Positions 11,510 to 39,750 of a stretch of DNA of 64,000 nucleotides are shown one piece after another. Where the stretch lies: assembly GCA_903822975.1 (NCBI GenBank), contig CAIJRD010000012.1:558001-622000 (forward strand). Reading direction: 5' to 3'. This DNA comes from an uncultured Sinobacteraceae bacterium. GTDB taxonomy: Bacteria > Pseudomonadota > Gammaproteobacteria > Nevskiales > Nevskiaceae. Under the pieces are notes generated by a model. That model did not search any database. It was not told where the DNA came from and worked only from the letters and a program-made list of their open reading frames with translations. How positions within the stretch are numbered: the stretch's first letter is position 1; each line of letters starts with the position of its first letter. Made by a program: the position numbers and the translations under genes.

Positions 11510-11529
11510 ACCTTATGGTTCGTTACGAT
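11510..11529. promoter_or_regulatory. Palindromic operator O1 upstream of the lower-pathway operon
   Basis: ACCTTATGGTTCGTTACGAT, one of six sites sharing TATG at positions 5-8, TA at 15-16 and T at 20. It sits between the divergent acetaldehyde dehydrogenase (minus) and patatin (plus) genes, so it could control either or both. The AT-rich stretch around it (TTATTCTG, ACTACCTTATGG) is the only promoter-like DNA in this 290-bp gap. Confidence 0.6.
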
Positions 11530-11731
11530 TGCAACATTCAGGCTGTATGGCTTGTAAGTTGTGCGTTGCGGCAACGGGTAGCCGCCTGTGCCGGGCCTCA
11601 CATGTCGCCGTGCGGACGCCTGATGGCACCCACTCGCCACCTTCGTCATCGTCTGTTTCAAGTCTGCAAGCTGACATACTCGTCCACGCGCATCGCACGT
11701 CGCACACCTTTCATACGCTCGCGTCCATCCC

Positions 11732-13204
11732 ATGAATTCGGTCCTGTCGGCGACACCCAACACCAAGCCTTTCATGCGATCGCGCAGTCTGCGGCGCGCG
11801 CTCTCGGAGGCGCATGATTACGACACCTGGTCGCAGACCGCGCGCGCGCTCGACGACTTGAGCGGACGCGGTGACTGGAAGCTGCGCGAGCGCAGCAGCC
11901 TGTACGACTACACGACGATCGGCGAAAAACTCGAAGAGCTGCGCGATGCGCGCAAGCGCGGCGACAGCCGCCGCATGGTGTTCGCACTCGAGGAAGGCGT
12001 GCACGGCAACCTCGGCGGCATGGGCCGCGCGGTGCTGTACAGCAAGGCGCAGTTCGGCACCAAGAAATTGATCGGCGATTACGTCGCCACGGTCGCCGAC
12101 ACGCTATTGCACATTGAGCGCCTACCTGAGCAAACCATGCGGCACGTCGACAAACTCGACCTGTTCCGCCGCGCCAGTCATTGCTACGGCCGCTCGGCAC
12201 TGATGCTGAGCAGCGGCGGCATGCTGATGTACTTTCATTTCGGCGTTGCCAAATGCCTGTTCGAGCAGGGCGTGCTGCCGAACACGATCTCGGGTTCGAG
12301 TGCCGGCGCGATCGTCTCTGCCGTGCTGGCCACACATACCGACGCCGAACTCGAAGGCTTCTTCACGCCCGAGAACATCTGCTTCGGCGAGCAGTGGAAA
12401 CCGAATCTGCTGGAGCGCGCGACCGGTCTGCGCCGCATCTTCGGTACGGCCGCGTTCGAGCACACCTTCGAACGCCTGATTCCGGACCTGACGTTTCGCG
12501 AGGCCTTCGCGCTCTCGGGTCGTAACGTCAGCATTTCAGTAAGTCCCTGCGAGCGTCATCAAAGTCCGCGACTGTTGAACGCGATCACCTCGCCGCATGT
12601 GCTGATCCGCTCCGCGGTGCGCGCGTCCTGCGCCATCCCGGGACTGTTCGAGCCGGTGCAGTTGCTGGCGCGCGACAGTTACGGCAAGACCGTGCCGTAT
12701 TTGAAGTCGCGCTGGATCGACGGCGTGTTCGCCGCCGACTTGCCGGCGCGCCAACTGGCGCGGCTGTACGGCACCAATCACTACATCGTCAGCTACATCA
12801 ACCCGGTGCTATTGCCGACGTTCCGCGATCACAAACTCGAAAGCGATCGCCTGCGGCCGCTGATGCGGATGCTGAAGGGTTCGTTGCGCAACCTGGCGAA
12901 ATCGACCGATGCGAAACTGGGCAAATACTTTCCGGAATCCTCGCTCGGCGTGGTCAACAAGGTGATTCACGACCTGCTCTCGCAGGACTACGTCGGCGAT
13001 GTGAATATCGCGCCGCACCGCCGCTTCGTGTCGCCGCTGAAGCTGGTATCGCCGCACACCAACGAAGAGATTGCGGAGGTCATCCTCGAAGGCGAGCGCC
13101 AGACCTGGCCGCGTGTGGAGATGATCCGCAATTCCTCCAGGATCAGCCGCACGCTCGACGAGATCCTGCGCCGCGCCGGCGAGCCGGGGCTCGTGGCGAG
13201 TTGA
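11732..13204 (+). CDS. Patatin-like phospholipase with N-terminal DUF3336 domain
   Basis: Protein of 490 residues. The N-terminal 140 residues match the DUF3336 layout (LRDARKRGDSRRMVFALEEGVHGNLGG) found in fungal TGL-type and proteobacterial lipases. A patatin domain follows with the oxyanion loop SSGG (160-163), nucleophile GSSAG (Ser190) and the dyad Asp in WIDGVFAADLP (near 330). It hydrolyses acyl esters of phospholipids or triacylglycerols. It has no signal peptide, so it is probably cytoplasmic or membrane-associated. It is divergent from the aromatic operon with the shared operator between them; a functional link is possible but not shown. Confidence 0.88.
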   Translation: MNSVLSATPNTKPFMRSRSLRRALSEAHDYDTWSQTARALDDLSGRGDWKLRERSSLYDYTTIGEKLEELRDARKRGDSRRMVFALEEGVHGNLGGMGRAVLYSKAQFGTKKLIGDYVATVADTLLHIERLPEQTMRHVDKLDLFRRASHCYGRSALMLSSGGMLMYFHFGVAKCLFEQGVLPNTISGSSAGAIVSAVLATHTDAELEGFFTPENICFGEQWKPNLLERATGLRRIFGTAAFEHTFERLIPDLTFREAFALSGRNVSISVSPCERHQSPRLLNAITSPHVLIRSAVRASCAIPGLFEPVQLLARDSYGKTVPYLKSRWIDGVFAADLPARQLARLYGTNHYIVSYINPVLLPTFRDHKLESDRLRPLMRMLKGSLRNLAKSTDAKLGKYFPESSLGVVNKVIHDLLSQDYVGDVNIAPHRRFVSPLKLVSPHTNEEIAEVILEGERQTWPRVEMIRNSSRISRTLDEILRRAGEPGLVAS

Positions 13205-13250
13205 ATGCGGCGATGCAGCGGTGAGCACAGCCCTGAAGGCCGCGCGATTT

Positions 13251-13372
13251 CGAGTTCCGAGTTCCGAGTTTCGAGTTTCGAGTTCCGAGTTCCGAGTTCC
13301 GAGTTTCGAGTTTCGAGTTTCGAGTTTCGAGTTCCGAGTTTCGAGTTTCGAGTTTCGAGTTTCGAGTTTCGG
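13251..13372. repeat. 7-bp tandem repeat, CGAGTTY, about 17 copies
   Basis: A satellite in which CGAGTTC and CGAGTTT alternate without interruption for about 122 bp, just after the patatin stop. Because 7 is not a multiple of 3, each reading frame yields a heptad peptide (for example SKLETRN on the minus strand), so the open frames across it are artefacts. Copy number is likely to vary between strains by slippage. Confidence 0.95.
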
Positions 13373-13421
13373 ACTCTAGGCTCCGCATCAAAAATGAATT
13401 CCTGCGCGAACCGGAATCGAC

Positions 13422-13748
13422 TCAGGGCGCCACAGAGTTTCCCGCCTCGAAGACCGGACGGAAGAAGGTTCGGTCGTAGCGCACGATACAGCGCGTGTCG
13501 CGCGCGTACTTGAAGGCCGCGATGCATTCCGGGTCGGCAAAGGAAGCGAGCCGATACTGCTCGTACAAGGCCAGGCTCGGGAACGTAAAGATCGCGATGG
13601 CAACGTCGCTCGCACCTTCGGACGGCAGGAAATAGCCCTGGTGCGTGCCGCCGAAACGGCCGATCAGGGCGATCCACAGGCGGCCGTAGTGTTCGAATTC
13701 CTTCAGCTTGTAGGGGTCGATGACGTAATGAATGCAGCAACTGACCAT
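13422..13748 (-). CDS. NIPSNAP family protein
   Basis: Protein of 108 residues with the ferredoxin-like dimeric alpha+beta NIPSNAP fold: an N-terminal strand MVSCCIHYVID, then PYKLKEFEHYGRLWIALIGRFGGTHQG in a helix-strand, then IAIFTFPSLALYEQYRLA. Proteins of this type often sit beside catabolic genes and their reaction is usually unknown. The ORF ends next to the 7-bp satellite. Start at ATG 13748 is preceded by GGAGAATCC on the coding strand, a plausible ribosome site. Confidence 0.85.
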   Translation of the reverse strand: MVSCCIHYVIDPYKLKEFEHYGRLWIALIGRFGGTHQGYFLPSEGASDVAIAIFTFPSLALYEQYRLASFADPECIAAFKYARDTRCIVRYDRTFFRPVFEAGNSVAP

Positions 13749-14100
13749 GCAGGATTCTCCGGGGGTTAACGGTCCGCCATGAGTGTCGCACCACCGGATG
13801 CAATGCGGCAGCAGCCGGACAGCTCACCGGCCAAGTCGTGGCCTCCGCCATCGCGGTACATACGGCCTGATTGATCAGCCGCACAGCGGAATCGCGCCGA
13901 ATCTGAGGTTTCGAATTTGACGCCGCGCCTCGATCTGCTACGGCAGCGCAAACAGCGGCGATGTAGAAACGCGATCGACCTGAAGATGCTCGATTCCGAG
14001 CCGGCGTACCCGCCGGGAACGCGCATCCCGGCGGCTTCGCTTGCGCATTCGCCATGGTTCGCTTTAGTATCGTACCGCTATTAACTATCTCGATACTTTC

Positions 14101-14628
14101 ATGCGCGGAATCGAACGACTGGCCTCGGTTGAACGCAGCACCCCGCCGATGGCGGAGGCCTTGCCGCAGCTGCCGATGTCCGAAACCGTGCTGGTTCGGC
14201 TGATGCGCATCAGCGTGTTCGGGCTCGGCAACTACTTCGAGCCGGTGTTTCGTGTGCTCGGGCTCACCGAAAATTCGTTCCACGTGCTGTGTCTGTTGAT
14301 GGCCAGCGACCACGGCCGCGCATCGCCGAGCGAGCTCAGCGAACTGGTCGGCACTACGCGCGCGAACATGACGCGGATTCTCGATTCGCTGATCAACGAC
14401 GGCTTCGCTTCGCGCAGCGTGGAAGCGCACGACGCGCGTCGCCATTCGATCCGCATTACCGCCGCCGGTCGCAAAGCCGCCAGCGAGGCGGTACCGAAGA
14501 TGGTCGAACCGCTGAAGCGCGCGTTCTCGGGGCTCGACGCGGAGGAAGTCGCGCTGCTCGATCGCCTGCTGCGAAAGACCATTGTGTCGTTCGACCGCGG
14601 TGCGGCACCGCTGCGTGCAGCCGCCTGA
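14101..14628 (+). CDS. MarR-family regulator (module copy 1)
   Basis: Winged-helix MarR regulator of 175 residues. The core runs from FHVLCLLMASDHGRASPSELSELVGTTRANMTRILDSL (recognition helix) to the wing DARRHSIRITAAG. It is about two thirds identical by eye to the MarR at 61259-61786, and each precedes the same three membrane genes, so it probably controls that module. An AT-rich stretch (14069-14098) with GTATCG and CGATAC arms lies directly ahead of the ATG and may hold the promoter and autoregulatory site. Confidence 0.9.
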   Translation: MRGIERLASVERSTPPMAEALPQLPMSETVLVRLMRISVFGLGNYFEPVFRVLGLTENSFHVLCLLMASDHGRASPSELSELVGTTRANMTRILDSLINDGFASRSVEAHDARRHSIRITAAGRKAASEAVPKMVEPLKRAFSGLDAEEVALLDRLLRKTIVSFDRGAAPLRAAA

Positions 14629-14640
14629 AGCGCGCCAATC

Positions 14641-14672
14641 AGATCAATCACAGATCGATCACAGATCAATCA
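14641..14672. repeat. Three 11-bp direct repeats, AGATCRATCAC
   Basis: AGATCAATCAC, AGATCGATCAC and AGATCAATCA lie head to tail in the 103-bp gap between the MarR gene and the six-TM gene. One helical turn (about 11 bp) of spacing suggests a repeated protein-binding site on one DNA face. The equivalent gap in module copy 2 (61787-61839) lacks this array. Confidence 0.75.
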
Positions 14673-14731
14673 AAACTTAAAAACATAAACCGCCGACCAC
14701 TACGGCGTCATCGCGAGAGAGGAGCACGAGC

Positions 14732-15481
14732 ATGGACGAGAAAACGAGCCTCAGATACGAGTTGATCAGCGCATGGTGTGGACCTGCGTTCTTCATCACG
14801 TTCATCATTTTTTGGGTCATCATCGGGCATAATCTGCCGAACCCGTCGCCGGCGCTCAGCGCGGTCGATCTGGCTGCGCGCTATATCGAAAATCTCGGCC
14901 AGATTCGACTCGGCTTCATCATCTCGCTGATCACCGTGGTGTTCTACATGCCGTGGACCTGTGTGCTGACGGTGCAGATGTGGCGCATCGAAGGCAAAGC
15001 GCCGGTGCTGTCGCTGCTGCAGCTTCTCGGCGGTGCATTGACGGTGATGGTCGTCTCGTTCTCGGCGATGTTCTGGGTGGTTGCCGCGTTCCGTCCCGAG
15101 CGCGATCCGGCGATCACGCAGATGCTCACCGATACCGGCTGGCTCTGTATCGATCTGCAATATGCCTGCACGACCTTGCAGATGGTTGCCGCCGCGCTGG
15201 TGGGACTCGCCGACAAGCGTGCAGTGCCGCTGTTCCCGCGCTGGGTCTGCTACCTGACCATCTGGTGCGGCATCAGCTTCTTCCCGGCCAGCCTCACCGG
15301 CGTGCTGAAGACCGGCCCGTTCGCCTGGAACGGCGCACTCAGCTACTACATTCCGTACTTCTGCTGGTTGTGCTGGTACACCACCGCGAGCGTCTACATG
15401 ATCAAGGATGTGCGGCGCCGCATGTCGGGTGCCAGCGTACCGGCAACCAGCCGCGGCTTCGTTCCGGGAATGAGCGTCTAG
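14732..15481 (+). CDS. Six-TM membrane protein of unknown family (module copy 1)
   Basis: Integral membrane protein of 249 residues with about six hydrophobic segments (roughly 17-35, 56-76, 86-108, 134-155, 165-187, 205-225). Landmarks are AWCGPAF near the N-terminus, WRIEGKAP, AAFRPERD, DLQYACTTLQM, FPRWVCYLTIWCGISFFPAS and KTGPFAW. I do not recognise a named family. A close copy lies at 61840-62592 and two distant paralogues at 20833-21585 and 21633-22388. The conserved order with CoxIII- and CoxIV-like genes suggests one membrane complex. Conserved aromatic and Cys residues are present, but no His pattern typical of haem or copper sites is obvious. Confidence 0.85.
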   Translation: MDEKTSLRYELISAWCGPAFFITFIIFWVIIGHNLPNPSPALSAVDLAARYIENLGQIRLGFIISLITVVFYMPWTCVLTVQMWRIEGKAPVLSLLQLLGGALTVMVVSFSAMFWVVAAFRPERDPAITQMLTDTGWLCIDLQYACTTLQMVAAALVGLADKRAVPLFPRWVCYLTIWCGISFFPASLTGVLKTGPFAWNGALSYYIPYFCWLCWYTTASVYMIKDVRRRMSGASVPATSRGFVPGMSV

Positions 15482-15538
15482 GTAATAAGAAGCGGCGGCG
15501 CGTCAGTCCAGGCGCGCGCTTCGAATTCCCCCATCGGT

Positions 15539-15562
15539 TTCGCGCCGGCCGCACGGCGCGAA
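15539..15562. other. GC-rich stem-loop between six-TM and CoxIII-like genes (copy 1)
   Basis: TTCGCGCCG and CGGCGCGAA form a perfect 9-bp inverted repeat with a 6-base loop in the 178-bp gap. There is no T run, so it may be a processing or attenuation structure rather than a terminator. A different stem-loop occupies the same place in copy 2. Confidence 0.6.
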
Positions 15563-15659
15563 GCCTTTGGACTTCGAGGTGCAGGTCTGCATCGCCAGAT
15601 CACCGGCGCAACTCGCGCTACGCATTCGTCTGCCTTGCCGATGCCTTGAGTCCGCCCCA

Positions 15660-16256
15660 ATGAACGCAATTACCGCCGTCCCGGATCAGGCCGCGCCGAT
15701 CGCGCAGCGCCTGCCCGGCGATCGCGACGTCTGGATTTTCATCTGTGCCGAATTGCTGATGTTCGGCGCGTTCTTCATCGCCTACATCGTCAACCGTGCC
15801 AGCGAACTCGCCGTGTTCAACGATTCGCAGCGCACGCTGGACCGAACCTGCGGCGTCATCAATACCCTGATTCTGATCAGCAGTTCCTGGGCGGTGGTAC
15901 AAGCACTCGCTGCGGCGCGAAGCCGGCGACCGCAGTTGATTTCAACCTACCTCGGCGTCGCCATCGCGCTGGGTGTGGCCTTCATGCTGGTGAAGGTGTT
16001 CGAGTACACGGCGAAGTTCGAAGCCGGCCTGTCGATGCTGACCAACACCTTCTACATGTTCTATTTCTGCCTGACGATGATTCACCTGATGCACGTCGTC
16101 GCCGGCACAGTCATTCTCACCGTGATGTGGAACAAGGCTCGCGCCGGCGGTTACGACAGCGGCCCCTTGCAGGGCCTCGAAACCGGTGCCTCGTATTGGC
16201 ACATGGTCGACCTGCTGTGGATCTTCCTGTTCGCGCTGCTTTATCTGCTGCGCTGA
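15660..16256 (+). CDS. Cytochrome c oxidase subunit III-like (NorE-type) membrane protein, copy 1
   Basis: Protein of 198 residues in the haem-copper oxidase subunit III superfamily, with the five-TM NorE-type layout. It shows GDRDVWIFICAELLMFGAFF, INTLILISSSWAVVQAL, FMLVKVFEYTAKFEAG, NTFYMFYFCLTMIHLMHVVAGTVIL (in parts) and the closing GASYWHMVDLLWIFLFALLYL. Start 15660 is chosen because it makes the protein exactly as long as copy 2. No subunit I or II gene is nearby, so this is an orphan subunit. NorE-like proteins accompany nitric oxide reductases elsewhere, but no norCB genes are seen here. Confidence 0.88.
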   Translation: MNAITAVPDQAAPIAQRLPGDRDVWIFICAELLMFGAFFIAYIVNRASELAVFNDSQRTLDRTCGVINTLILISSSWAVVQALAAARSRRPQLISTYLGVAIALGVAFMLVKVFEYTAKFEAGLSMLTNTFYMFYFCLTMIHLMHVVAGTVILTVMWNKARAGGYDSGPLQGLETGASYWHMVDLLWIFLFALLYLLR

Positions 16257-16262
16257 CCGAAC

Positions 16263-16559
16263 ATGAATACCCTGCTGCGCAATACCAATCACCGCACCTG
16301 GCTCCTGCTGGTAATCGCCACCGCTGCAACCTACTGGCTGCGCGAAGACGCGCAACTCGGCGCCATTGCGGGCTTCGTGACGCTGGCGATCGCCTACGCC
16401 AAGGGCCGCCTCGTCGTCCTCGACTACATGGAGCTGCGGCATGCGCCACGTTTGTGGCGCAGCCTGCTCGAAGGCTGGCTCGTCGCGGTGACTGCAATCA
16501 TTCTGCTGGTGTATCGCTACGGCCTGCCCGAGTTCGGCGGCGGCAACGTCGCCGGCTGA
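16263..16559 (+). CDS. Cytochrome c oxidase subunit IV-like (NorF-type) membrane protein, copy 1
   Basis: A 98-residue protein with three predicted TM segments and the family landmarks NTNHRTWLLLVIATAATYWLRE, KGRLVVLDYMELRHAPRLWRSLLEGW (read in parts) and a C-terminal helix. It matches the prokaryotic subunit IV/NorF family that pairs with subunit III-like proteins. It starts 6 bp after the CoxIII-like stop, so the two are probably co-translated. Its copy-2 relative at 63290-63577 has the same layout. Confidence 0.85.
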   Translation: MNTLLRNTNHRTWLLLVIATAATYWLREDAQLGAIAGFVTLAIAYAKGRLVVLDYMELRHAPRLWRSLLEGWLVAVTAIILLVYRYGLPEFGGGNVAG

Positions 16560-16564
16560 AGCGT

Positions 16565-17005
16565 TCAACCGATGCGGTAGCCTTCGAACCAGTTGCGGAT
16601 CGAGTCGGGAATCGGTTGCGGTCGACGCGTGACTTCGTCGATCAGCACGATCACGGTTTCTGAAGTACCGAAGCAGCGATCGCCTTCGAACAGTCCCTGC
16701 CCGATGCGGCAGGAGCTGCGGCCGATGTCGAGCACGCCGGTGCCGACGTCCACCTGTGCGGGCCAGAACACTTCGCCGATGAAATTGAGGATCAGCTGCG
16801 CGGGCAGGAACATCGCACGCTCGGTGAAATGCTTGTCGACATAGCGGCGCAGGAACAAGGAGCGGCCGGTTTCGCAGAACGCCCCGAACGTCAGGTTGTT
16901 CGCGTGACCCACCAGGTCGGTATCGGACCAACGCACGTGTTCCTGCGTCCAGTGCGTGTAAGAGGTTCGCAGCGACGTCAGAGGATTGGAGGTTGCGGCA
17001 GGCAT
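16565..17005 (-). CDS. Acyl-CoA thioesterase, 4-hydroxybenzoyl-CoA thioesterase-like hotdog fold
   Basis: Single-hotdog protein of 146 residues with HVRWSDTDLVGHANNLTFGAFCETGR carrying the Asp of the 4HBT group, followed by VDVGTGVLDIGRSSCRIGQGLFEG. It would hydrolyse an acyl-CoA to acid plus CoA in the cytoplasm. The start at 17005 (MPAATSNPL) is preferred because the longer frame would run through the operator at 17037-17056 and into the divergent gene. The operator places it in the aromatic regulon. Substrate is unknown; it could relieve CoA sequestration during growth on the aromatic. Confidence 0.82.
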   Translation of the reverse strand: MPAATSNPLTSLRTSYTHWTQEHVRWSDTDLVGHANNLTFGAFCETGRSLFLRRYVDKHFTERAMFLPAQLILNFIGEVFWPAQVDVGTGVLDIGRSSCRIGQGLFEGDRCFGTSETVIVLIDEVTRRPQPIPDSIRNWFEGYRIG

Positions 17006-17036
17006 GGTGGGAGAGGCAGTAGATGGCGGCTGGATA

Positions 17037-17056
17037 TTGGTATGCAATGATACTAT
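17037..17056. promoter_or_regulatory. Palindromic operator O2
   Basis: TTGGTATGCAATGATACTAT, sharing TATG (5-8), TA (15-16) and T20 with the other sites. It sits in the 105-bp gap between the divergent thioesterase and class II aldolase-fold genes, 32 bp from the thioesterase ATG. Confidence 0.55.
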
Positions 17057-17110
17057 CTGCGAACCTCTCGAAACCCGTGGCGTCGAGCCCAGCGATCCAT
17101 CCGATCCCTC

Positions 17111-17800
17111 ATGAACCCTACTCACAGCAATCTCGATCGCGATCTGCGCTTGGCCGCTCGTGCACTCGCACGCGGCAATCTGGTTCACGCCTACGGCCAT
17201 TGCAGCGTGCGTCTGGACCGTCAGCATTTTCTCGTCTGTGCCGCCAAACCGATGGGGACGATCGGCAGCGGCGAGGCTGGCACCGTGGTTGCGATCGATG
17301 GCGCGCTACCCGAAGGCGTGCTGGGTGAAGTGCGCATTCATCAGGCGATCTATCGACTGCGCAGCGACGTCGGCGCCGTTGCCCGCATCATGCCGCCGCA
17401 GACCATGCTGCTGTCGCTGCTGCGCCGCACGGTGCGTCCGCGGCATGGCTTCGGCGCTTATTTCGCGCCGCAGCCCCCGCTATGGGAAGACCCGCGACTG
17501 CTGCGCGACGACGCCGCCGCGCTGAAGCTCGCCGAACAACTCGGACCCTCGAATGCGATCGTGATGCGCGCCAATGGCGCCGTCGTGGTCGGCGCCGACT
17601 TGGTCGAAGCCGTAGCACTGTCCTGGTTCCTCGAAGAAGCCGCACGTGTCGAAACCGCGTTGGCCAACCTCAAAGCCGATGGCGAGGAAACACTGTTGAC
17701 GCCGGACGAGACCAAAGCCCGCCAGGTCACCGCCGGCCGCGTCTACGAACGCATGTGGGACTACCTCACGCACGGCGACCCGGAACTCATCGCAGGTTAG
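17111..17800 (+). CDS. Class II aldolase/adducin-fold protein, candidate HCOMODA decarboxylase (CmtD-like)
   Basis: Protein of 229 residues with the class II aldolase/adducin layout: AARALARGNLVHAYGHCSVRL, EVRIHQAIYRLRSDVGAVAR, LWEDPRLLRDD, VMRANGAVVVG and an LEEAARVE helix. In FucA/AraD enzymes the metal is held by an HxH pair and a later HG. Here the equivalents are R92-I-M and N155-G, while Glu73 and His77 remain. p-Cumate pathways need a decarboxylase (CmtD) for the ring-cleavage product and, from memory, it belongs to this superfamily. No other candidate is present, so this gene may fill the gap. The operator next to it supports membership in the regulon. Confidence 0.62.
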   Translation: MNPTHSNLDRDLRLAARALARGNLVHAYGHCSVRLDRQHFLVCAAKPMGTIGSGEAGTVVAIDGALPEGVLGEVRIHQAIYRLRSDVGAVARIMPPQTMLLSLLRRTVRPRHGFGAYFAPQPPLWEDPRLLRDDAAALKLAEQLGPSNAIVMRANGAVVVGADLVEAVALSWFLEEAARVETALANLKADGEETLLTPDETKARQVTAGRVYERMWDYLTHGDPELIAG

Positions 17801-18503: not shown

Positions 18504-18506
18504 TGA

Positions 18507-18842: not shown

Positions 18843-18849
18843 GCACGAG

Positions 18850-18906: not shown

Positions 18907-18923
18907 TGCTTTGGTCGCCGCTC

Positions 18924-24716: not shown

Positions 24717-24736
24717 ACGATATGGTAGCTTACGAT
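24717..24736. promoter_or_regulatory. Palindromic operator O3 in the divergent dehydrogenase/reductase promoter
   Basis: ACGATATGGTAGCTTACGAT, matching the six-site consensus at TATG (5-8), TA (15-16) and T20. It lies 88 bp above the minus-strand reductase start and 124 bp above the plus-strand ferredoxin-reductase gene, so one bound repressor could silence both directions. Confidence 0.62.
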
Positions 24737-24859: not shown

Positions 24860-25930
24860 ATGGGGCTGTTCAAGTCGCTGTTTGGGCAAAAAGAGGCGAA
24901 GCTCGTCAACGTCGCCCCGTTCGGCTCGCAGTTCGAAGTCCCCAGCGGGCAGACCATGCTCGAAGCCGCGCTCGCTGCCGGCGTGCCATTTCCGCACAAC
25001 TGCACGGTCGGCACCTGCGGCTCTTGCAAGTGCAAACTGAAAACCGGTCGGGTCAACGCGCTCACCGATTTCGGCTACACACTGTCGCAGCAGGAGATCG
25101 CAGCCGGCTTCATCCTCGCGTGCCAGGCGATTCCGCGCGATGCGCTGACCGAAGTCGAAGTGGAGAGCCAGGCGCTCGATGCGCCCGCGCCGGAAGGCTT
25201 CGTCGCGACCTTGGCGGAAACCACGTCGCTGACGCACGACATCCTGCGCGTGACGCTGACGCTCGACCGGCCGATCAAGTTCGTCGCGGGCCAGTACGCG
25301 AACCTCAAATATCCGAACATCCGCCGCGCACGGAATTACTCGTTCGCCGATGCGCCCGATCGCGACGGCCGCAGCACGCTCAACTTCTTCGTGCGCAAGG
25401 TGCCGGGCGGCGCATTCACCGAAGATCTATTCGCCGGCAAGCTGGCCGGTGTTCCACTCGATCTGGAAGGACCGCACGGCAGCTTTCACTTGCATCCCGG
25501 TGACGCGCCGATGATCTGCATAGCCGGCGGCAGTGGACTGGCGCCGCTGCTGAGCCTGCTGGAGGACGCGCGCAAGAACCGCGTTAAACGGCCCTGTGCC
25601 TTCCTGTTCGGCGCACGCACGCAGGCCGACCTGTACGGCCTCGATCAGATTCAGCAGATCGCCAATGGCTGGGCCGACCAATTCGTGTTCCTGCCGGTGT
25701 TGTCGCACGAGCCCGCCGACAGCAGCTGGAAGGGTGCGCGCGGTCTGGTTACGCAGTTCATTACCGATGCGCTGCCCGGAACCGACTTCGCGACTGCGCA
25801 AGGCTACATGTGTGGACCGCCTGGAATGATCGACGCCGGCATCGCCTCGATGACCGAGATCGGCATGCCGCTGGAAGCGATCTTCTATGACAAGTTCACC
25901 GACGAAAGCCACAGCGCGAAGATGCCGTGA
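24860..25930 (+). CDS. Xylene/cymene monooxygenase-type electron transfer protein (2Fe-2S, FAD, NAD)
   Basis: XylA/CymAb-like reductase of 356 residues. A plant-type [2Fe-2S] ferredoxin domain comes first (Cys48, Cys53, Cys56, Cys88 in HNCTVGTCGSCKC and FILACQA). An FAD domain (RARNYSFAD, then PGGAFTEDLF) and an NAD domain (GGSGLAPLLSLLED, ending YMCGPPGMID) follow. It takes electrons from NADH and passes them to a membrane di-iron hydroxylase. The matching hydroxylase gene is at 31229-32353 in a separate transcript, unlike the adjacent arrangement known for XylMA and CymA. Both transcripts have the shared operator. Confidence 0.88.
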   Translation: MGLFKSLFGQKEAKLVNVAPFGSQFEVPSGQTMLEAALAAGVPFPHNCTVGTCGSCKCKLKTGRVNALTDFGYTLSQQEIAAGFILACQAIPRDALTEVEVESQALDAPAPEGFVATLAETTSLTHDILRVTLTLDRPIKFVAGQYANLKYPNIRRARNYSFADAPDRDGRSTLNFFVRKVPGGAFTEDLFAGKLAGVPLDLEGPHGSFHLHPGDAPMICIAGGSGLAPLLSLLEDARKNRVKRPCAFLFGARTQADLYGLDQIQQIANGWADQFVFLPVLSHEPADSSWKGARGLVTQFITDALPGTDFATAQGYMCGPPGMIDAGIASMTEIGMPLEAIFYDKFTDESHSAKMP

Positions 25931-32419: not shown

Positions 32420-33661
32420 TTAGGCCCTCGCCCGCACAACGGGGCCACTTTCCGGCCGGGCGGTCGCGCCAGTCGGTTTGACGATCGGCTGAACACGCTC
32501 ATGGCCGCGCGCCGCGCTGAACAGCGAGCGGCCGATGATCAGCTTCATGATTTCGATTGAACCGCCGGCGATCTTGACGATGCGCGAATCCGCAAATGCG
32601 CGCGAGATCGGGTATTCCCACATGTAACCCCAGCCGCCGAACAGTTGCAGACATTCGTCGGCCACGCGGCAATGCAGGTTCGATAGCCACATCTTCGCCA
32701 TCGCCGCATCGACTTCGTCCAACTCGCCGCGCATGAACGCAGAGATGCAGTGATCGGTAAAAACGCGACCGATCACGGCGTCGGTTTTCATCTCCGCAAG
32801 TTTGAATTGCGTGTTCTGGAAATCGCCGATGGTCTTGCCGAAGGCCTTGCGGTTGGCGGTGTAATCCACCGTCATCTCGATCAGCGTTTCAGCCACGGTG
32901 GCCGAGCGAATCGCCTGTGCGAGCCGCTCCTGTGCCAGCTTGGTCATCATCAGCTTGAAGCCTTCACCCTCGGCGCCGAGCATCGCGCTTGCCGGCACGC
33001 GGAGATCCTCGAAGAACAGCTCCGAGGTGTCCTGTGCCTTCAGGCCCAGCTTCTCCAGGTTCTTGCCGCGCTTGAAGCCGGGCAGCGAGGTATCCACCAG
33101 AAACAGCGTGATGCCCTTGGCACCGGCGTTCTCGGTCTTGGTCGCCAGCACCACCACGTCGCACAGCTGGCCGTTGGAGATGAACACCTTCTGGCCGTTG
33201 ATGACGTAGTCGTCGCCATCGCGCACCGCGCGCGTGCGGATGTTCTTCAGATCCGAGCCGGCGTGAGGCTCGGTCATGCCGAGCGAGCCGATGGCTTCGC
33301 CGCTGACCATCTTCGGCAGCCAATGCTTCTTCTGTTCTTCGCTGCCGAACGAGCGCACATAGGTGGCCACCAGATCGCAGTGAATCAAAAAGCCCGGACC
33401 GGTGAAGCCGCTGCGCGCCATCTCTTCGAATACGACCACGTCGAACAGGTAGTCGAGCCCGAGGCCGCCGTATTCTTCCGGCACCGTGCAGCACAGCAAA
33501 CCGGCATCGCCGGCTTTCAGCCAAAGCTCGCGCGGGACGATGCCTTGGCGTTCCCACTCGGCGTGGAACGGAGCGATTTCCTTCTCGATGAACTTGCGCA
33601 CCGATGAACGGAACATTTCGTGCTCGTTCTGGAAAAGGCTGCGCTGAAACATCAAAAACAC
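32420..33661 (-). CDS. Acyl-CoA dehydrogenase
   Basis: Flavin-dependent acyl-CoA dehydrogenase of 413 residues. It has FAD/substrate motifs MTEPHAGSDLKNIRT and VFISNGQLCDVVVL, the DTSELFFEDLRVP loop, RKAFGKTIGDFQNTQFKLA, QLFGGWGYMWEYPI, and the likely catalytic Glu in GGSIEIMKLIIGRSL. It dehydrogenates an acyl-CoA at C2-C3 and passes electrons to ETF. It is the first gene of the transcript that also carries the XylM-like hydroxylase, 24 bp below operator O4. Branched-chain acyl-CoA (for example isobutyryl-CoA) is a plausible substrate in the p-cumate scheme. Confidence 0.93.
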   Translation of the reverse strand: MFLMFQRSLFQNEHEMFRSSVRKFIEKEIAPFHAEWERQGIVPRELWLKAGDAGLLCCTVPEEYGGLGLDYLFDVVVFEEMARSGFTGPGFLIHCDLVATYVRSFGSEEQKKHWLPKMVSGEAIGSLGMTEPHAGSDLKNIRTRAVRDGDDYVINGQKVFISNGQLCDVVVLATKTENAGAKGITLFLVDTSLPGFKRGKNLEKLGLKAQDTSELFFEDLRVPASAMLGAEGEGFKLMMTKLAQERLAQAIRSATVAETLIEMTVDYTANRKAFGKTIGDFQNTQFKLAEMKTDAVIGRVFTDHCISAFMRGELDEVDAAMAKMWLSNLHCRVADECLQLFGGWGYMWEYPISRAFADSRIVKIAGGSIEIMKLIIGRSLFSAARGHERVQPIVKPTGATARPESGPVVRARA

Positions 33662-33684
33662 TCCGAAAACGGTTATTAAAGTCT

Positions 33685-33704
33685 ATCGTATGCTTCCATA
33701 CGAT
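33685..33704. promoter_or_regulatory. Palindromic operator O4, perfect inverted repeat
   Basis: ATCGTATG CTTC CATACGAT: perfect 8-bp arms with a 4-base centre, the best example of the shared site. It lies 24 bp above the acyl-CoA dehydrogenase/hydroxylase transcript, in position to block transcription. The rest of the 314-bp gap has a repeated TTGTTCGGYCAG motif (about 33926-33953) and no gene. Confidence 0.7.
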
Positions 33705-33975
33705 TGATGTAAAGCGCCTCGCCGGCTACGGCAATCGAAGGCCGCACGCTCACTTCTGCAAGCTTTTATCGATGAGTCGCTGCGTGCGCCAGCACACTTA
33801 GCAGCCGCTGATCTTGGCGGTACAACAACGACCCCACCCGGGCGGCTGACCGGCCGCAACGATGCGCGGCTGGACGGCGACTTCCCAGTCCAAATCGTCG
33901 TCCGGATCGTCGGCCGGCTCCTCGGTCAGTTGTTCGGCCAGTTGTTCGGTCAGACTTTGCGCGCGCTCGCTGGCG

Positions 33976-35121
33976 CTACAGCGAACGCGAAATCAGCTCA
34001 CGCATGATTTCCGAGGTGCCGCCGTAGATGCGCTGCACACGCGCATCGGCATAGAGCCGGCAGATTTCGTATTCGCGCATGAAGCCGTAGCCGCCGAAGA
34101 ACTGCAGGCACTGGTCGACCACGCGGCCGTGCATCTCGCTGCACCAAAGCTTGGCGATCGACGCGTCGGCAGACGTCAGCGCGCCGCGTTCGTGGCGGGC
34201 CAGGCATTGATCGACGAACGCCCAACCGACACTGAGTTCCGCCTTCAGATCAGCCAGCTTGTACCGCGTGTTCTGGAAGTCCATCACGGCCTTGCCGAAC
34301 GCACGCCGTGAACGCACGTAATCGCAAGCCAGATCGAACGCACGCTGCGCCGCTCCCATCGACGACAGCGCCAGCGTCAGGCGTTCCTGCGGCAGTTCGG
34401 TCATCAGCACGGTGAAGCCGCCACCTTCGGCACCGAGGATATTGCCGACCGGAACGCGCACTTCGTCGAAGAACAATTCCGAGGTGTCCGCCGATTTGTG
34501 GCCGAGCTTGTCGAGATTGCGGCCGCGGCGAAAACCCGGCCGGTCGGTCTCGACCAGCACCAGGCTGATGCCCTTAGCACCCGGCGCGTCGCTGGTGCGC
34601 GCAACCACGATGACGACGTCGGCATGCTGGCCGTTGGAGATGAACGTCTTGCTGCCGCTGACGACCAGTTCGTCGCCGTTGCGCACCGCACGCGCGCGCA
34701 CGCCTTGCAGATCGCTGCCGGTGCCGGGTTCGGTCATCGCGATCGCACACACGCTCGCGCCGCTGACCATACGCGGCAACCAGTGCTGCTTCTGCGCCTC
34801 GTTGCCGAAGTGCAGGATGTATCCGGCGCAGACGTCGCTATGAACGGAGAAGTCGCTCAAGGGCCCCGCATAGCCGGCATAGGCGATTTCCTCACCGATG
34901 ATGGCGTTGTGCAGGAAACTGCCGCCAGGTCCGCCGTAGCACTCCGGTACCTGTGGACACAGCAGACCGGCGGCACCGCCACTGGTCCAGTACTGACGAT
35001 CGACAATGCCCTGCTCTTCCCAGCGGGCAAAGTTCGGCGTGATCTCGGCCGCGATGAACCCGCGTACGGCATCGCGGAACATCGCGTGTTCTTCGTTGTA
35101 GACCGCTCGATGTTGCAGCAT
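33976..35121 (-). CDS. Acyl-CoA dehydrogenase
   Basis: Second acyl-CoA dehydrogenase, 381 residues, parallel in layout to 32420-33661. It shows MTEPGTGSDLQGVRAR, TFISNGQHADVVIVV, DTSELFFDEVRVPVG, RRAFGKAVMDFQNTRYKLA and the catalytic Glu in YGGTSEIMRELISRSL. The two proteins are clearly related but not near-identical, suggesting different chain lengths or steps. It lies 17 bp after the NPD-type flavoprotein gene, forming a two-gene unit. No copy of the shared operator was noticed upstream of that unit. Confidence 0.93.
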   Translation of the reverse strand: MLQHRAVYNEEHAMFRDAVRGFIAAEITPNFARWEEQGIVDRQYWTSGGAAGLLCPQVPECYGGPGGSFLHNAIIGEEIAYAGYAGPLSDFSVHSDVCAGYILHFGNEAQKQHWLPRMVSGASVCAIAMTEPGTGSDLQGVRARAVRNGDELVVSGSKTFISNGQHADVVIVVARTSDAPGAKGISLVLVETDRPGFRRGRNLDKLGHKSADTSELFFDEVRVPVGNILGAEGGGFTVLMTELPQERLTLALSSMGAAQRAFDLACDYVRSRRAFGKAVMDFQNTRYKLADLKAELSVGWAFVDQCLARHERGALTSADASIAKLWCSEMHGRVVDQCLQFFGGYGFMREYEICRLYADARVQRIYGGTSEIMRELISRSL

Positions 35122-35138
35122 GGCTGTCTACTTTCCGG

Positions 35139-36125
35139 TTAGAGACTGGCCGCGCGCGGCAAATCCACACCGCGCGAGACGCCCGCGCCGCGATACTCAT
35201 TGAGCAACTGTTCGACGGTTTCGGCGACATCGGCCACGCGATCGACGCAGCCGACGCCCTGGCCGGCGCCATAGATGTTCTTCCAGGGCTTGTGGCCGCC
35301 GTGCACATCGGAGAAGTCGATCTTGCCGTCCACGGCAAGCCGGTTCTGATCGAGGCCGGCGGCGGCAACGCTCTCCTTCAACCAGTTGCACATCACGCCG
35401 GTCACCGCCTTGGTGCTGACCACACCGTCCATACCCGCGCGCACCATCATCGCCCGGTATTCCTCGTTGACCAGACTCTCCGGACAGGCGATGAAGCGCG
35501 TGCCCATGTAAACCAGATCGGCACCGAGCATCTCGGCGGCACGCACGCCACGGCCATCGGAGATCGCGCCGCCGACCACGATCGGTCCATCGAAGAAGCG
35601 CCGCACTTCGGGCACGAAGGCGAACGGGCTGTAGGCGCCGGTATGCCCGCCGGCGCCGTGACACACGAGCACCAGACCATCGACACCCGCATCCACCGCC
35701 TTGCGCGCGTGCTCCAGCGACATCACGTCGGCAAACACCGCGCCGCCATAGCTGTGCACGGTATCGAGCACGCGCTTCGGCGAGCCGAGCGCGGTGACGA
35801 TCAGTTCAGGCCGGTATTCCTGCAGCAGTTCGAGCTCCTGCGCGAAGCGGTCGTAACTCGGATGCACGATCAGACTCACGGCCCAACCGCCAACGGTTCC
35901 ACCGGCTTTGCGCACCGCGGCGAGTTCGTCGCGGATGCGCAGGAACCAGTCGTTCAGTTGCTCGATGCTGCGCGCGTTCTGCGTCGGAAACGAACCCATC
36001 AGGCCGGCCTTGCAGGAGGCAATCACCAGTTCGGGACCAGACACCAGAAACATCGGGGCAACGATCACCGGCAAACGCAGGCCCTGGCGCAGACGCGAGA
36101 CGATCCGATCGGCAGATTGATTCAT
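35139..36125 (-). CDS. Nitronate monooxygenase / NPD-family flavoprotein
   Basis: FMN-binding TIM-barrel protein of 328 residues in the 2-nitropropane dioxygenase family. It has LPVIVAPMFLVSGPELVIASCKAGLMGSFP at the N-terminus, ADVMSLEHARKAVDAGVDGLVL, HGAGGHTG and GGAISDGRGVRAAEMLGADLVYMGTRF for FMN phosphate. The family includes nitronate monooxygenases and FMN enoyl reductases. Beside acyl-CoA dehydrogenases an enoyl-CoA-related redox role is as likely as nitronate oxidation. Start 36125 (MNQSADRI) was chosen over an upstream ATG because it fits the family length. Confidence 0.85.
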   Translation of the reverse strand: MNQSADRIVSRLRQGLRLPVIVAPMFLVSGPELVIASCKAGLMGSFPTQNARSIEQLNDWFLRIRDELAAVRKAGGTVGGWAVSLIVHPSYDRFAQELELLQEYRPELIVTALGSPKRVLDTVHSYGGAVFADVMSLEHARKAVDAGVDGLVLVCHGAGGHTGAYSPFAFVPEVRRFFDGPIVVGGAISDGRGVRAAEMLGADLVYMGTRFIACPESLVNEEYRAMMVRAGMDGVVSTKAVTGVMCNWLKESVAAAGLDQNRLAVDGKIDFSDVHGGHKPWKNIYGAGQGVGCVDRVADVAETVEQLLNEYRGAGVSRGVDLPRAASL

Positions 36126-36509
36126 GGGGAGATTCGCTGGTAGGTGTTTAGACGTGCGCAGTATCCGAAGCCCGCTCCGTGCATAAAAGCTTGCCTGCGT
36201 AACATTAATGCCGGCGTCAATCACGGCGACTCTGGCGCAACGTTTTAAGGCCGCGGGCGGAGCGGACGATTAGCCCCAGGATTTTGGAAGTCGGTACTGC
36301 GCCGCAGGATTGATCGCTGGATCTGGGCTGCACTCTGGCATTGCGCCCAATTCTTGATGGTCGAAGGCAGACTGCGCGCTGTACTTCGCCAAGCCGTATG
36401 CGTCCAACTTGAGCCGCCGGATCTGCACGGGCTCGATGCGAACTCGATGCGAATTCGATGAGACCTCGATGCAAGCTCGCCGCCGACGTAATCGGCGCCG
36501 GATGCTGGG
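36126..36509. other. Intergenic region with degenerate TCGATGCGAA repeats
   Basis: About 384 bp between convergent ends/starts of minus-strand genes. CTCGATGCGAA-like units recur three to four times at 36434-36475. No gene, terminator or operator copy was recognised. Confidence 0.5.
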
Positions 36510-37175
36510 CTACGGCATGACGCGCCAGGCACGCGTGAACAATTGCACGAGCGTTTCGATCCAGTGCCGTCGCGCCTGAGGATGCCGCGAAGGTTGAACC
36601 AGCAGGTATCGACCCGCACCGCTGGCCATGCCGGCGATCTGTGTGGCGGCGTCGTATGGAGAATCGATCGCGATCTGGCCTGCCTCCCGCAGTCGCTGCA
36701 GATAGTCGACCAAGGGGGCGACTGCCGACTTCGAATCGTTCAGCATCGCGCGACCGAGCTTCGGAAAGCGTCGCGCATCGGCAATCACCATGCGCATCAC
36801 CGCCATGTACTGCGGCTGCGTAAACCCATCGTAGAGCTTCTCGATGATCTCGCGCAGCACCTGCTCCAATGGCGCATGTGGATCTACGCTGAACGCCAGG
36901 CCATCGCGGACGCGCAGCTGGGCGCGCCGTGCGACTTCGACGAACAGCTGCTCCTTGGTATCGAACTGGCGATAGAGCGTGATCTTGGCAACTTCGGCGG
37001 TGCGCGCGATGCCTTCCATGCTGCTGGCTTCGAAGCCATGCGTAATGAACGTCGTCAGCGCGGCATCGAGAATGTTCTCCCGCAGGACCGAAGCCTGTGC
37101 GACGGTGGGACGTCCCGGCGCACGTCGTGGCGATGGCGTCTGTCGCAGGCGCGCCGGCTTCGGTGTCAGCGGCAT
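36510..37175 (-). CDS. TetR-family regulator, candidate master of the shared operator
   Basis: TetR protein of about 221 residues. The HTH is ILDAALTTFITHGFEASSMEGIARTAEVAKITLYRQFDTKEQLF, and the C-terminal domain contains LREIIEKLYDGFTQPQYMAVMRMVIADA. The start at 37175 (MPLTPKPARLRQTP) is preferred; the longer frame from 37301 would translate through the palindrome at 37264-37283. That site lies in the divergent promoter of this gene and the OYE gene, the usual place for a TetR autoregulatory operator. This makes the protein a better candidate than the CymR-like one for binding the whole site family. That is inference. Confidence 0.85.
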   Translation of the reverse strand: MPLTPKPARLRQTPSPRRAPGRPTVAQASVLRENILDAALTTFITHGFEASSMEGIARTAEVAKITLYRQFDTKEQLFVEVARRAQLRVRDGLAFSVDPHAPLEQVLREIIEKLYDGFTQPQYMAVMRMVIADARRFPKLGRAMLNDSKSAVAPLVDYLQRLREAGQIAIDSPYDAATQIAGMASGAGRYLLVQPSRHPQARRHWIETLVQLFTRAWRVMP

Positions 37176-37263
37176 CGCCGCGCCGAATCCGGGCCAGAGC
37201 CCGAGCCAGGCATCACCGGCATTGCAGCACAGACGCGCCGCAGACGGACCCTGCCGCTCGCAT

Positions 37264-37283
37264 ATGGTATGGTTACATACCGT
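37264..37283. promoter_or_regulatory. Palindromic operator O5 between TetR and OYE genes
   Basis: ATGGTATG GTTA CATACCGT, arms matching at 7 of 8 positions, between the divergent TetR (minus) and Old Yellow Enzyme (plus, 27 bp away) genes. Shares TATG, TA and final T with O1-O4 and O6. Confidence 0.7.
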
Positions 37284-37309
37284 ATAAGACACACTGAACA
37301 CACTCCTCG

Positions 37310-38407
37310 ATGAGCACCCTTTTCTCGCCCGCCCGATTCGGCAGGCTCGATGCCGCGAACCGTATCGTGGTCGCTCCGATGTGCCAGTACTCCGGCATCG
37401 ACGGAAGTGTACAGCCCTGGCATGCGCAACACCTTGGGCAGCTGGCGATCTCCGGCGCCGGTGTGCTGACGCTCGAAGCCACTGCGGTCGAACGCCAAGG
37501 CGCGATCACGCACGGCTGCTTGGGACTCTGGAACGACAGTCAGGCGCACGCACTCGCCAAGCTGCTAAGCGAGCTGCGCAGCTTTGCGCGATTGCCCATC
37601 GGCATTCAGCTCGGCCACGCCGGACGCAAGGGCTCGGCGCAAGCACCCTGGCTTGGCGGCGCGCCGCTGACACCCGAGCAAGGCGCCTGGACCACACTGG
37701 CGCCGTCGGCGCTGCCCTGGGGTCGCGACTGGCCGGTGCCCGAGGCACTCGACCAGGCCGGCATCGACCGCATCGTCGCCGCGTTTGCCGCCGCGGCACA
37801 GCGCGCCGATCGCGCCGGTCTCGATTTCATCGAACTGCATTCCGCGCACGGCTATCTGATGCACGCCTTTCTTTCGCCGATTTCGAATCAGCGCCGCGAT
37901 GGCTACGGCGGATCGCTTTCGAATCGCATGCGCTTTCCGCTCGAAGTGATGCGCGCGGTGCGCGCAGTTTGGCCGGCACAGAAAACACTGGGCCTGCGCA
38001 TCAATGGCACCGACTGGCTCGACGACGGCTGGCAGGTCGAAGATGCAATCGCGTATGGCCGCGCGCTGCTCGATGTCGGCGCCGATTATCTTTCGGTTTC
38101 CAGCGGCGGTGCGCGCGGCGGCGTGACGATCAAACTCGAGCCGGGCTATCAGGTGAGCTTCGCCGCCAAGCTGCGACAGGCGCTGGGTTGCCCGATCGTC
38201 TGCGCAGGCCTGATTGCCGATCCGGCGCATGCCGATGCGATCGTCACACGGGGCGATGCGGATTTCGTAGCACTTGCACGTGCGCTGCTCGACGATCCGC
38301 GCTGGCCGCAGCATGCCGGCATCAGCCTGGCGCAACCGCAGGACTTGCCGCCGCAGTATCAGCTGGCAGCAGCCGGGCGTTGGCCGCTCGCGCGTCGCGC
38401 CGCCTGA
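37310..38407 (+). CDS. Old Yellow Enzyme family NADH:flavin oxidoreductase (YqjM/XenA-like)
   Basis: FMN TIM-barrel ene-reductase of 365 residues. VVAPMCQYSGIDG carries the Cys25/Tyr27 pair typical of the YqjM/XenA subgroup. Further motifs are GIQLGHAGRKGSA, ELHSAHGYLMHAFLSPISNQRRDGYGGSL (substrate and FMN residues) and the C-terminal ADFVALARALLDDP. It reduces alpha,beta-unsaturated carbonyls with NAD(P)H. It is the first plus-strand gene after operator O5, followed 41 bp later by a dienoyl-CoA-reductase-like SDR. A role in saturating an unsaturated intermediate is plausible. Confidence 0.92.
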   Translation: MSTLFSPARFGRLDAANRIVVAPMCQYSGIDGSVQPWHAQHLGQLAISGAGVLTLEATAVERQGAITHGCLGLWNDSQAHALAKLLSELRSFARLPIGIQLGHAGRKGSAQAPWLGGAPLTPEQGAWTTLAPSALPWGRDWPVPEALDQAGIDRIVAAFAAAAQRADRAGLDFIELHSAHGYLMHAFLSPISNQRRDGYGGSLSNRMRFPLEVMRAVRAVWPAQKTLGLRINGTDWLDDGWQVEDAIAYGRALLDVGADYLSVSSGGARGGVTIKLEPGYQVSFAAKLRQALGCPIVCAGLIADPAHADAIVTRGDADFVALARALLDDPRWPQHAGISLAQPQDLPPQYQLAAAGRWPLARRAA

Positions 38408-38448
38408 AAATAATCCGCAAGCAACTAGAAAACTTTAAGGAGTGACCG

Positions 38449-39339
38449 ATGACACTATTCGACAAAAAAGCACTGTCCGGAAAACGCATCCTGATCACCG
38501 GCGGCGGCACCGGCCTGGGCAAGGGCGTAGCCGGGATACTCGCGGATCACGGTGCGCAGGTGCACCTGTGGGGACGACGCAGTGAGGTGCTGAAGCAGGC
38601 GGCCGATGCGATCAACGCGCGCAACCCGGGCTCGGCGTTCTTCCAGGCGGTCGACATCCGCAAGCAGGAACTGGTCGACGCCGCAGTCGGCGCGATCTGG
38701 TCCGAGCATGGGGCGCTCACCGGCCTGGTCAACAATGCCGCAGCCAACTTCATCGCACCAACCAAGGACCTGAGCCCGCGTGCGTTCGAAGCGATTACCA
38801 GCACCGTGATGAACGGCGCGTTCTTCACGACCCAGGCCTGCGGCAAGCGCTGGATCGACCAGGGCCTCAAGGGCTCGGTGGTGTCGACGCTGGTGACCTG
38901 GGTCTGGACCGGTTCGGCATTCGTTACGCCGTCGGCGATGGCCAAGGCGGCAGTGAACGCGATGACGATGTCGCTCGCGGTCGAGTGGGCACGCTACGGT
39001 ATTCGTATCAATGCCGTGGCGCCGGGACCGTTCCCGACCGATTACGCCTGGCAGATGCTGAGCCCAACCGAGGACAGCGCAGTCGGCGCAACCCAGGCCA
39101 GCGAAGTACCGATGGGCCGCTACGGCGAGATCCACGAACTCGCGAACCTGATGCTGCTGCTGCTCGGCGACGGCTGCGAATATCTCACCGGCGAGACGAT
39201 CTGCATCGACGGCGGTCACCATCTTGCAGCTCCTTCTACCTTCGCCGGCCTGACCAAGCTCGATGACAAGGCCTGGCTCAAAATCCGCGAGGCCAGTCAG
39301 GCCGCGAGCGCGTCGGCCAAGGCTCAGCGCAACGTCTGA
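38449..39339 (+). CDS. SDR family protein, 2,4-dienoyl-CoA reductase-like
   Basis: Short-chain dehydrogenase of 296 residues. TGGGTGLGKGVA binds the nucleotide and NNAAANF replaces the usual NNAG. The catalytic segment STLVTWVWTGSAFVTPSAMAKAAV has the conserved Lys but Ser/Met where classical SDRs have YxxxK, as in 2,4-dienoyl-CoA reductases. VAPGPFPTDYAW and ICIDGGHHL complete the fold. It probably reduces a dienoyl- or enoyl-CoA with NADPH. AAGGAG lies ahead of the ATG, and a strong GC hairpin follows the stop. Confidence 0.88.
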   Translation: MTLFDKKALSGKRILITGGGTGLGKGVAGILADHGAQVHLWGRRSEVLKQAADAINARNPGSAFFQAVDIRKQELVDAAVGAIWSEHGALTGLVNNAAANFIAPTKDLSPRAFEAITSTVMNGAFFTTQACGKRWIDQGLKGSVVSTLVTWVWTGSAFVTPSAMAKAAVNAMTMSLAVEWARYGIRINAVAPGPFPTDYAWQMLSPTEDSAVGATQASEVPMGRYGEIHELANLMLLLLGDGCEYLTGETICIDGGHHLAAPSTFAGLTKLDDKAWLKIREASQAASASAKAQRNV

Positions 39340-39381
39340 GCACCAGGCGCCGCACGACAGAATAGCGGCCTGCAGGACCTG

Positions 39382-39408
39382 CGCGGCGGCGCCGCGCCGC
39401 CGCGTTTC
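39382..39408 (+). terminator. GC-rich hairpin terminator after the OYE-SDR operon
   Basis: CGCGGCGGCG and CGCCGCCGCG form a 10-bp stem with a 3-base loop, followed by TTT, 42 bp after the SDR stop. The T run is short, but the stem is very stable. Confidence 0.7.
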
Positions 39409-39462
39409 ACATGCTCGATTCAAACGCCGAAATAATCGGCTCGCTGGACGACGGAACTAAGT

Positions 39463-39675
39463 CTAATTACGACCGCGACGTTTGCGTGCGGCCGATGCAC
39501 CGCGCCGTAACACGCTGGCCGCAGGAGGGCTCGGCGCAACCGCAGACTCCGCCAGCGTGCGCGTCTTCGTGATCGCCTGCTGCAAACCACGCACCCATTC
39601 CTGCAGGCGTCCCGGACCGTCCGCTTGCTGAAGTCTTGCCGGGGCCTCCAAATTCACTTCACTGCTGACTTGCAC
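39463..39675 (-). CDS. Small basic-tailed protein downstream of an operator copy
   Basis: Unrecognised 70-residue ORF: an amphipathic helix region (ARLQQADGPGRLQEWVRGLQQAITKTRTLAES), then a Pro/Ala linker and a very basic tail (RRGASAARKRRGRN). The only argument for it beyond the open frame is position: operator O6 lies 56 bp above the ATG in the orientation seen at other regulated genes. The tail could bind nucleic acid or acidic surfaces. It may also be a chance ORF. Confidence 0.45.
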   Translation of the reverse strand: MQVSSEVNLEAPARLQQADGPGRLQEWVRGLQQAITKTRTLAESAVAPSPPAASVLRRGASAARKRRGRN

Positions 39676-39730
39676 GAGAACGCTTCCCCAACGTCGCCGT
39701 TACCCGTATCACTACGCGGCCAAATCTATA

Positions 39731-39750
39731 TAGGTATGGTGCCATATCAT
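39731..39750. promoter_or_regulatory. Palindromic operator O6
   Basis: TAGGTATGGTGCCATATCAT, with GGTATGG and CCATATC nearly palindromic around a 2-base centre. It carries the invariant TATG, TA and final T. AT-rich flanks (CTATATA, ATTATTCAG) look promoter-like. The nearest ORF is the 70-residue one on the minus strand. Confidence 0.55.

Follow-up and report, generated by a model that had tools for sequence, protein, structure and literature searches.

Which protein reads a 20-bp palindrome that recurs six times among the catabolic genes of an uncultured Sinobacteraceae bacterium? The six copies lie in positions 558001-622000 of contig C12 (a 64-kb stretch, hereafter the window), part of a 4.46-Mb genome in 20 contigs. 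A preliminary description of this DNA had taken them for operators of a regulon of at least six transcription units, and had named as possible controller a TetR protein encoded beside one of them (here TetR-A). Comparison of related genomes confirms a conserved regulon, the six sites being putative operators of one large catabolic regulon that Nevskia-type bacteria share with related genera of their family. As to the controller, we lean towards a MarR-family protein, MarR-C, as the reader of these operators, rather than the TetR protein beside the site at 37264.

A palindrome shared by six sites

The six sites are listed below, with (matrix) where the assignment comes from the matrix described in the next paragraph.

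11510-11529, minus strand: operator-like palindrome (matrix), 43 bp before the acetaldehyde dehydrogenase gene heading the ring-hydroxylation/meta-cleavage operon
17037-17056, plus strand: operator-like palindrome (matrix), between a putative thioesterase-like gene (minus strand; name from the preliminary description) and a class II aldolase (CmtD-like) gene, 17111-17800
24717-24736, no strand assigned: operator-like palindrome (matrix), between divergent dehydrogenase genes (minus strand) and a ferredoxin-reductase gene, 24860-25930 (plus strand)
33685-33704, minus strand: putative operator, its 8-bp arms perfect, before the acyl-CoA dehydrogenase gene ACAD1
37264-37283, no strand assigned: putative operator between the TetR-A and OYE/SDR genes
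39731-39750, no strand assigned: operator-like palindrome (matrix), no convincing target gene

All six 20-mers were verified at these coordinates in the window sequence. TATG (positions 5-8), TA (15-16) and T (20) are invariant in 6/6 sites, and the arms of the site at 33685-33704 flank CTTC, so the preliminary description of the motif was accurate. When 63,981 window positions were scored with a strand-symmetric matrix made from the six sites, the sites took ranks 1-6 (scores 21.1-28.1, next position 14.8); with leave-one-out matrices their ranks were 6, 6, 4, 2, 3 and 6. The exact core TATGN4CATA occurs three times, against a mean of 0.095 in order-2 Markov simulations (maximum 1 in any of 200), and the same core with one mismatch is at chance level (6 observed vs 5.8). 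The bare core GTATGN4CATAC, allowing up to two mismatches, shows no enrichment in the window (13 vs 12.7 expected), which indicates that flanking positions carry motif signal. Blind clustering of palindromic window 20-mers at 7-8 mismatches, a setting that was too loose, did not single out the six sites.

Genome-wide excess and conservation of the sites

A search of the own genome with the pattern WNSGTATGSNNSCATACSNW, allowing up to two mismatches, gave 58 matches, compared with 19 for the reversed pattern used as control (Poisson P 5e-13). Thirteen distinct sites have at most one mismatch, of which 10 were judged intergenic and three within genes; these calls were made by codon usage, and "intergenic" includes four sites that fall in a weak open reading frame (ORF) or at the 5' edge of an over-long one, and one in a region where no gene was called. 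One of the three coding sites, C12:66035, recurs within the homologous gene of genome G013.

Conservation was followed at the promoter of one gene, which serves as the marker of the regulon.

32420-33661, minus strand: ACAD1, acyl-CoA dehydrogenase, putative well-conserved target (domain scan, orthologs)

ACAD1 orthologs with at least 78% identity were found in 20 of the 100 genomes searched, own genome included, and in 18 of these 20 a site scoring at least 12.6 lies directly before the gene. Five of the 18 genomes are without TetR-A (G012, G013, G031, G065 and G077). The two remaining promoters are those of G035, with a score of 11.8, and G030, with no site there. Operator copies above chance and their conservation at orthologous promoters are both what a transcription-factor regulon should have, and the regulon is larger than the six units first proposed. 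The idea that the palindromes are chance, promoter-composition or repeat artefacts could draw on the lack of enrichment of the bare core in the window and on the –10-like TAnnnT ends inherent in the palindrome, but it is contradicted by the leave-one-out ranks, the genome-wide excess and the same position at orthologous promoters, and we regard it as extremely improbable.

Overlap with predicted promoters

The minus strand at ACAD1 carries a promoter-like pair that overlaps the palindrome.

33708-33713, minus strand: predicted –35 box TTTACA, 17 bp before TACGAT (33685-33690, minus strand) in the right half of the operator; kept in 17/20 orthologous promoters

The arrangement TTTACA-N17-TAnnnT recurs in these 17 of the 20 ACAD1 promoters, including four from genomes without TetR-A (G012, G013, G065 and G077). 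With TTTACA 17 bp before the right half-palindrome, the operator would occupy the –35/–10 spacer and the –10 box. A second pair, TTGAAG 17 bp before TATGGT in the left half, was read by eye at 5/12 TetR-A/SDR promoters, own genome not among them. Promoter-like pairs overlapping a site had a mean score of 7.5 in 36 hand-chosen orientations of own sites and 6.1 at 2000 random intergenic positions, an excess partly built into the motif; scores of at least 9, likewise partly inflated by the motif, were obtained in 7/36 orientations and at 1.2% of the random positions. Such an overlap of operator and predicted core promoter suits a repressor. A dimeric repressor would bind the 20-bp palindrome, approximately ATSGTATGSTWSCATACSAT, and, by covering the –10 box and the –35/–10 spacer of its target promoters, would exclude RNA polymerase until a pathway intermediate releases it; the repressor would most likely be MarR-C.

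Genes of the putative regulon

Genes near sites in the own genome include AMP ligases, acyl-CoA dehydrogenases, an enoyl-CoA hydratase, a Rieske oxygenase, a DUF1329 protein and SDRs, and the same regions encode HMG-CoA-synthase-like and BcrABC-like proteins. The pathway under control looks catabolic. These regions also encode, on the own contig C12, the fused isobutyryl-CoA mutase IcmF (L122:105-3374; 1961 bits, cut-off 1500), and in G013 a site stands immediately before the IcmF ortholog (L203:6251). IcmF would be in keeping with the release of isobutyrate from a ring compound that bears an isopropyl group. Shared control would join poorly annotated genes (HMG-CoA-synthase-like, BcrABC-like and DUF1329 proteins, TonB receptors) into one pathway.

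Two further loci were observed. Genes resembling subunits of benzoyl-CoA reductase/2-hydroxyacyl-CoA dehydratase, with a BadF/BcrA-type activator, lie behind an operator copy at L122:10613-14106 and are kept in several relatives. A further acyl-CoA dehydrogenase, sharing 93% identity with ACAD1, is encoded on C12 at L273:13617-14804; its gene follows a site that scores 15.8, and a MarR-C paralog lies downstream of it.

TetR-A and TetR-B as candidate readers

The preliminary description pointed to the TetR protein next to the site at 37264.

36510-37175, minus strand: TetR-A, with TetR_N and TetR_C_7 domains (AefR-like)
37310-39339, plus strand: OYE-family oxidoreductase and SDR genes, putative targets (domain scan, relatives' loci)

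TetR proteins bind palindromes of this size, and TetR-A could repress the whole regulon and autoregulate through the site at 37264. TetR-A orthologs (61-81%) are present in 12 of 60 relatives, and the site adjoins TetR-A in the own genome and in 11 of these 12. In a phylogenetic profile of 61 genomes (G000-G060; 18 with ACAD1, 43 without), TetR-A is confined to ACAD1 genomes (13/18 vs 0/43). However, in the twelfth relative, G002, it is the SDR gene that keeps the site in front, with TetR-A about 4 kb away, and sites persist in genomes without a close TetR-A ortholog, namely G013 (28 matches vs 5 in the control), G031, G012, G030, G077 and G065 (at ACAD1). A profile search supports the absence of TetR-A from site-keeping genomes. 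Because sites are kept there, TetR-A is not needed for them, and the distribution of the motif does not follow TetR-A. In addition, of 17 distant TetR homologs several have another palindrome, resembling TGAACTGTACGGTTCA, ahead of their genes. No clear picture emerged from a search for family-typical palindromes before the genes of MarR homologs and of distant TetR homologs, the top ones being mostly GC-rich.

A second TetR protein, TetR-B (C12:967715-968446 in the own genome), is unlike TetR-A and has the site in front of its gene in 5/8 genomes. As this dissimilar protein also has it, the reader cannot be told from the presence of a site before a TetR gene; more generally, a TetR gene next to a palindrome is poor evidence that its product is the reader. 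The proposal of TetR-A as controller is weakened by the sites in genomes lacking it, by the arrangement in G002 and by the site before TetR-B; we consider control of the whole regulon by TetR-A unlikely, and TetR-A is more likely a companion or target than the controller. TetR-B was rejected as master regulator, occurring in just 8 of the 18 genomes with ACAD1 (0/43 of the others) and lacking the site in three of its eight. A further TetR gene (216 aa; L110:9071-9721 and neighbors in other genus loci) adjoins TetR-A in several relatives, with no such gene called beside TetR-A in the window.

It is conceivable, though doubtful, that two or more of MarR-C, TetR-A and TetR-B share the operator, or form a nested cascade in which a master controls local regulator genes, a scheme that overlaps with reading by MarR-C. 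The motif precedes all three regulator genes in the own genome. The five genomes with a site before TetR-B all hold TetR-A, and the three without that site all lack it, although this sample is small. A shared specificity of the two TetR proteins is not expected, since their recognition-helix regions differ on sequence comparison (VAKITLYR in TetR-A, VVDGTIYR in TetR-B). In the reading we favor, with MarR-C as reader, TetR-A and TetR-B probably belong to the regulon themselves and have narrower or secondary roles.

MarR-C as candidate reader

MarR-C is encoded at C11:117589-118215 (minus strand) of the own genome, in a MarR-family gene whose product matches Pfam MarR models and has MarR/SlyA-family proteins as its nearest solved relatives by sequence. 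Counted at 50% identity or more in the same 61 genomes, MarR-C occurs in 17/18 ACAD1 genomes and in 1/43 others (Fisher P 6e-13, a value that overstates independence because the genomes are related). The lone MarR-C genome without ACAD1, G016, also has sites (22.3 and 14.6), and G077, which lies beyond the 61-genome set, has sites together with MarR-C, a close TetR-A being absent. Motif matches exceed the control in sums over the six genomes with MarR-C and without TetR-A (112 vs 54, of which G013 alone has 28 vs 5), the 13 genomes with TetR-A (265 vs 132, of which the own genome has 58 vs 19) and the three genomes with MarR-C and neither TetR (35 vs 14), compared with 590 vs 517 in the 43 genomes without MarR-C; G013 and the own genome weigh heavily in these sums. 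The motif thus follows MarR-C when ACAD1 is the marker, and by raw counts it does so in sums, not in every genome.

Some of the MarR-C genes themselves also lie behind a site, which might serve autoregulation. Among 26 homologs (25 by identity, that of G077 by profile score), 20 were inspected for upstream sites, at distances that are approximate because start codons are not settled. For eight of the 20, a site with a score of 14.5 or more lies no farther than 400 bp upstream of the aligned part; another four follow a site heading a putative operon (G005, G006, G012 and G017; the G006 gene comes after a 435-bp gap). In the own genome the site lies 91 bp upstream. Locus L274 of G021 holds a site, MarR-C and a CmtD-like gene in one array, in that order, which ties MarR-C to the pathway of the window. 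The high score before a MarR gene of G001 (L263) comes from an AT-rich repeat, which was set aside.

Several observations speak against MarR-C as reader. Co-occurrence cannot separate a reader from a target, and MarR-C is encoded on a different contig from the window. There is no motif excess in two genomes that have MarR-C (G021, 13 vs 13; G035, 27 vs 23), and there is an excess in three that lack it (G039, 22 vs 8; G028, 30 vs 16; G003, 17 vs 7). Two genomes with ACAD1 and a site have no close MarR-C, namely G011 (88% complete; only a 35% homolog) and G065 (90% complete, in 480 contigs), and G030 has MarR-C and no site at ACAD1. Five of the 20 inspected genes are preceded by weak sites only (10.1-11.2; in G035 there is another of 19.7 about 550 bp away), and three, including that of G013, the genome with the clearest excess, have no site in their 3-kb locus. 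Finally, the cross-genome profiles cover only MarR-C, TetR-A and TetR-B, which leaves room for another regulator as the reader; other helix-turn-helix genes do occur in the clusters, such as a MerR gene in L274 and the further TetR gene beside TetR-A in some relatives. None in the fetched loci recurred near sites as often, in the absence of a systematic count, and we think a reader beyond these three proteins quite unlikely.

On balance MarR-C fits better than TetR-A as a tracker of the regulon, and its role as reader is somewhat favored by our data. A broader reading, which we offer tentatively, is a family-wide catabolic super-regulon in which a global MarR-type regulator acts through dozens of operators and also controls at least two TetR genes, with local TetR circuits nested in the MarR circuit.

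Relation to known systems

The ring-cleavage genes of the window call for comparison with cumate catabolism.

676-11466, minus strand: putative operon encoding Rieske dioxygenase, extradiol dioxygenase, hydrolase, hydratase, CoA ligase, aldolase and acetaldehyde dehydrogenase

As in the CymR/CuO system of Pseudomonas putida F1, which responds to p-cumate, a cumate-type aromatic operon is here accompanied by operator palindromes, and a TetR gene (2866-3528) lies inside the operon; the corresponding operon of G012 holds a homolog of this gene at 63%. The published P2-CuO cumate operator is AACAAACAGACAATCTGGTCTGTTTGTA (PMC1654148). Its core, ACAGACN6GTCTGT, has no match in the window with up to two mismatches, in agreement with the earlier remark that the palindrome is unlike the cumate operator. 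In contrast to CymR/CuO, the operator sequence differs and the putative regulon extends far beyond the aromatic operon.

The KstR and KstR2 regulons of actinobacterial steroid catabolism, governed by TetR proteins, place one palindromic operator across many catabolic operons. Our system resembles them in this layout and differs in clade and in its best candidate reader, which is of the MarR type. Steroid catabolism was rejected as the pathway: the HsaC and HsaD models reached only 85 of 450 and 123 of 400 bits, far short of their cut-offs. No steroid model was above cut-off among the NCBIfam matches listed for the scanned proteins.

MarR-C shares its MarR domain and nearest solved relatives with repressors of the MarR, SlyA and HosA type. 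MarR repressors mostly have one or a few adjacent operons as their known targets, whereas the regulon proposed here would hold dozens of sites. Among the literature titles and abstract beginnings searched, none describes the operator or the regulon, which is apparently undescribed so far; our analysis supplies an exact operator and a candidate reader for it. The palindromic operator/promoter pair is also a possible biosensor part.

Other features of the window

The sites at 17037 and 24717 also have counterparts elsewhere. In G012 a single site (score 14.4) lies between divergent orthologs of the aldolase gene and the dioxygenase operon (L271:16352), and the divergent promoter matching the site at 24717 also has sites in G032, G021, G017, G005 and G077 (scores 13.6-22.6). 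A likely seventh site was detected near a TonB-receptor gene.

58928-58947, minus strand: weaker copy of the motif (score 14.8) and likely a seventh site, with a TonB-receptor gene (56012-58564) about 364 bp downstream

TonB-receptor homologs (about 30-48% identity) in loci L198, L204, L206, L273 and L277 likewise have upstream sites. The 70-aa ORF by the site at 39731 (39463-39675, minus strand) was not called as coding. This site falls in a region of about 2.7 kb past the SDR gene (39340-42074) that contains one short called gene only and may be a decayed gene. The window also holds a MarR gene of its own, 14101-14628, which is only distantly similar to MarR-C (19 bits), lies upstream of cytochrome-oxidase subunit III/IV-like genes and is 84% conserved in G006.

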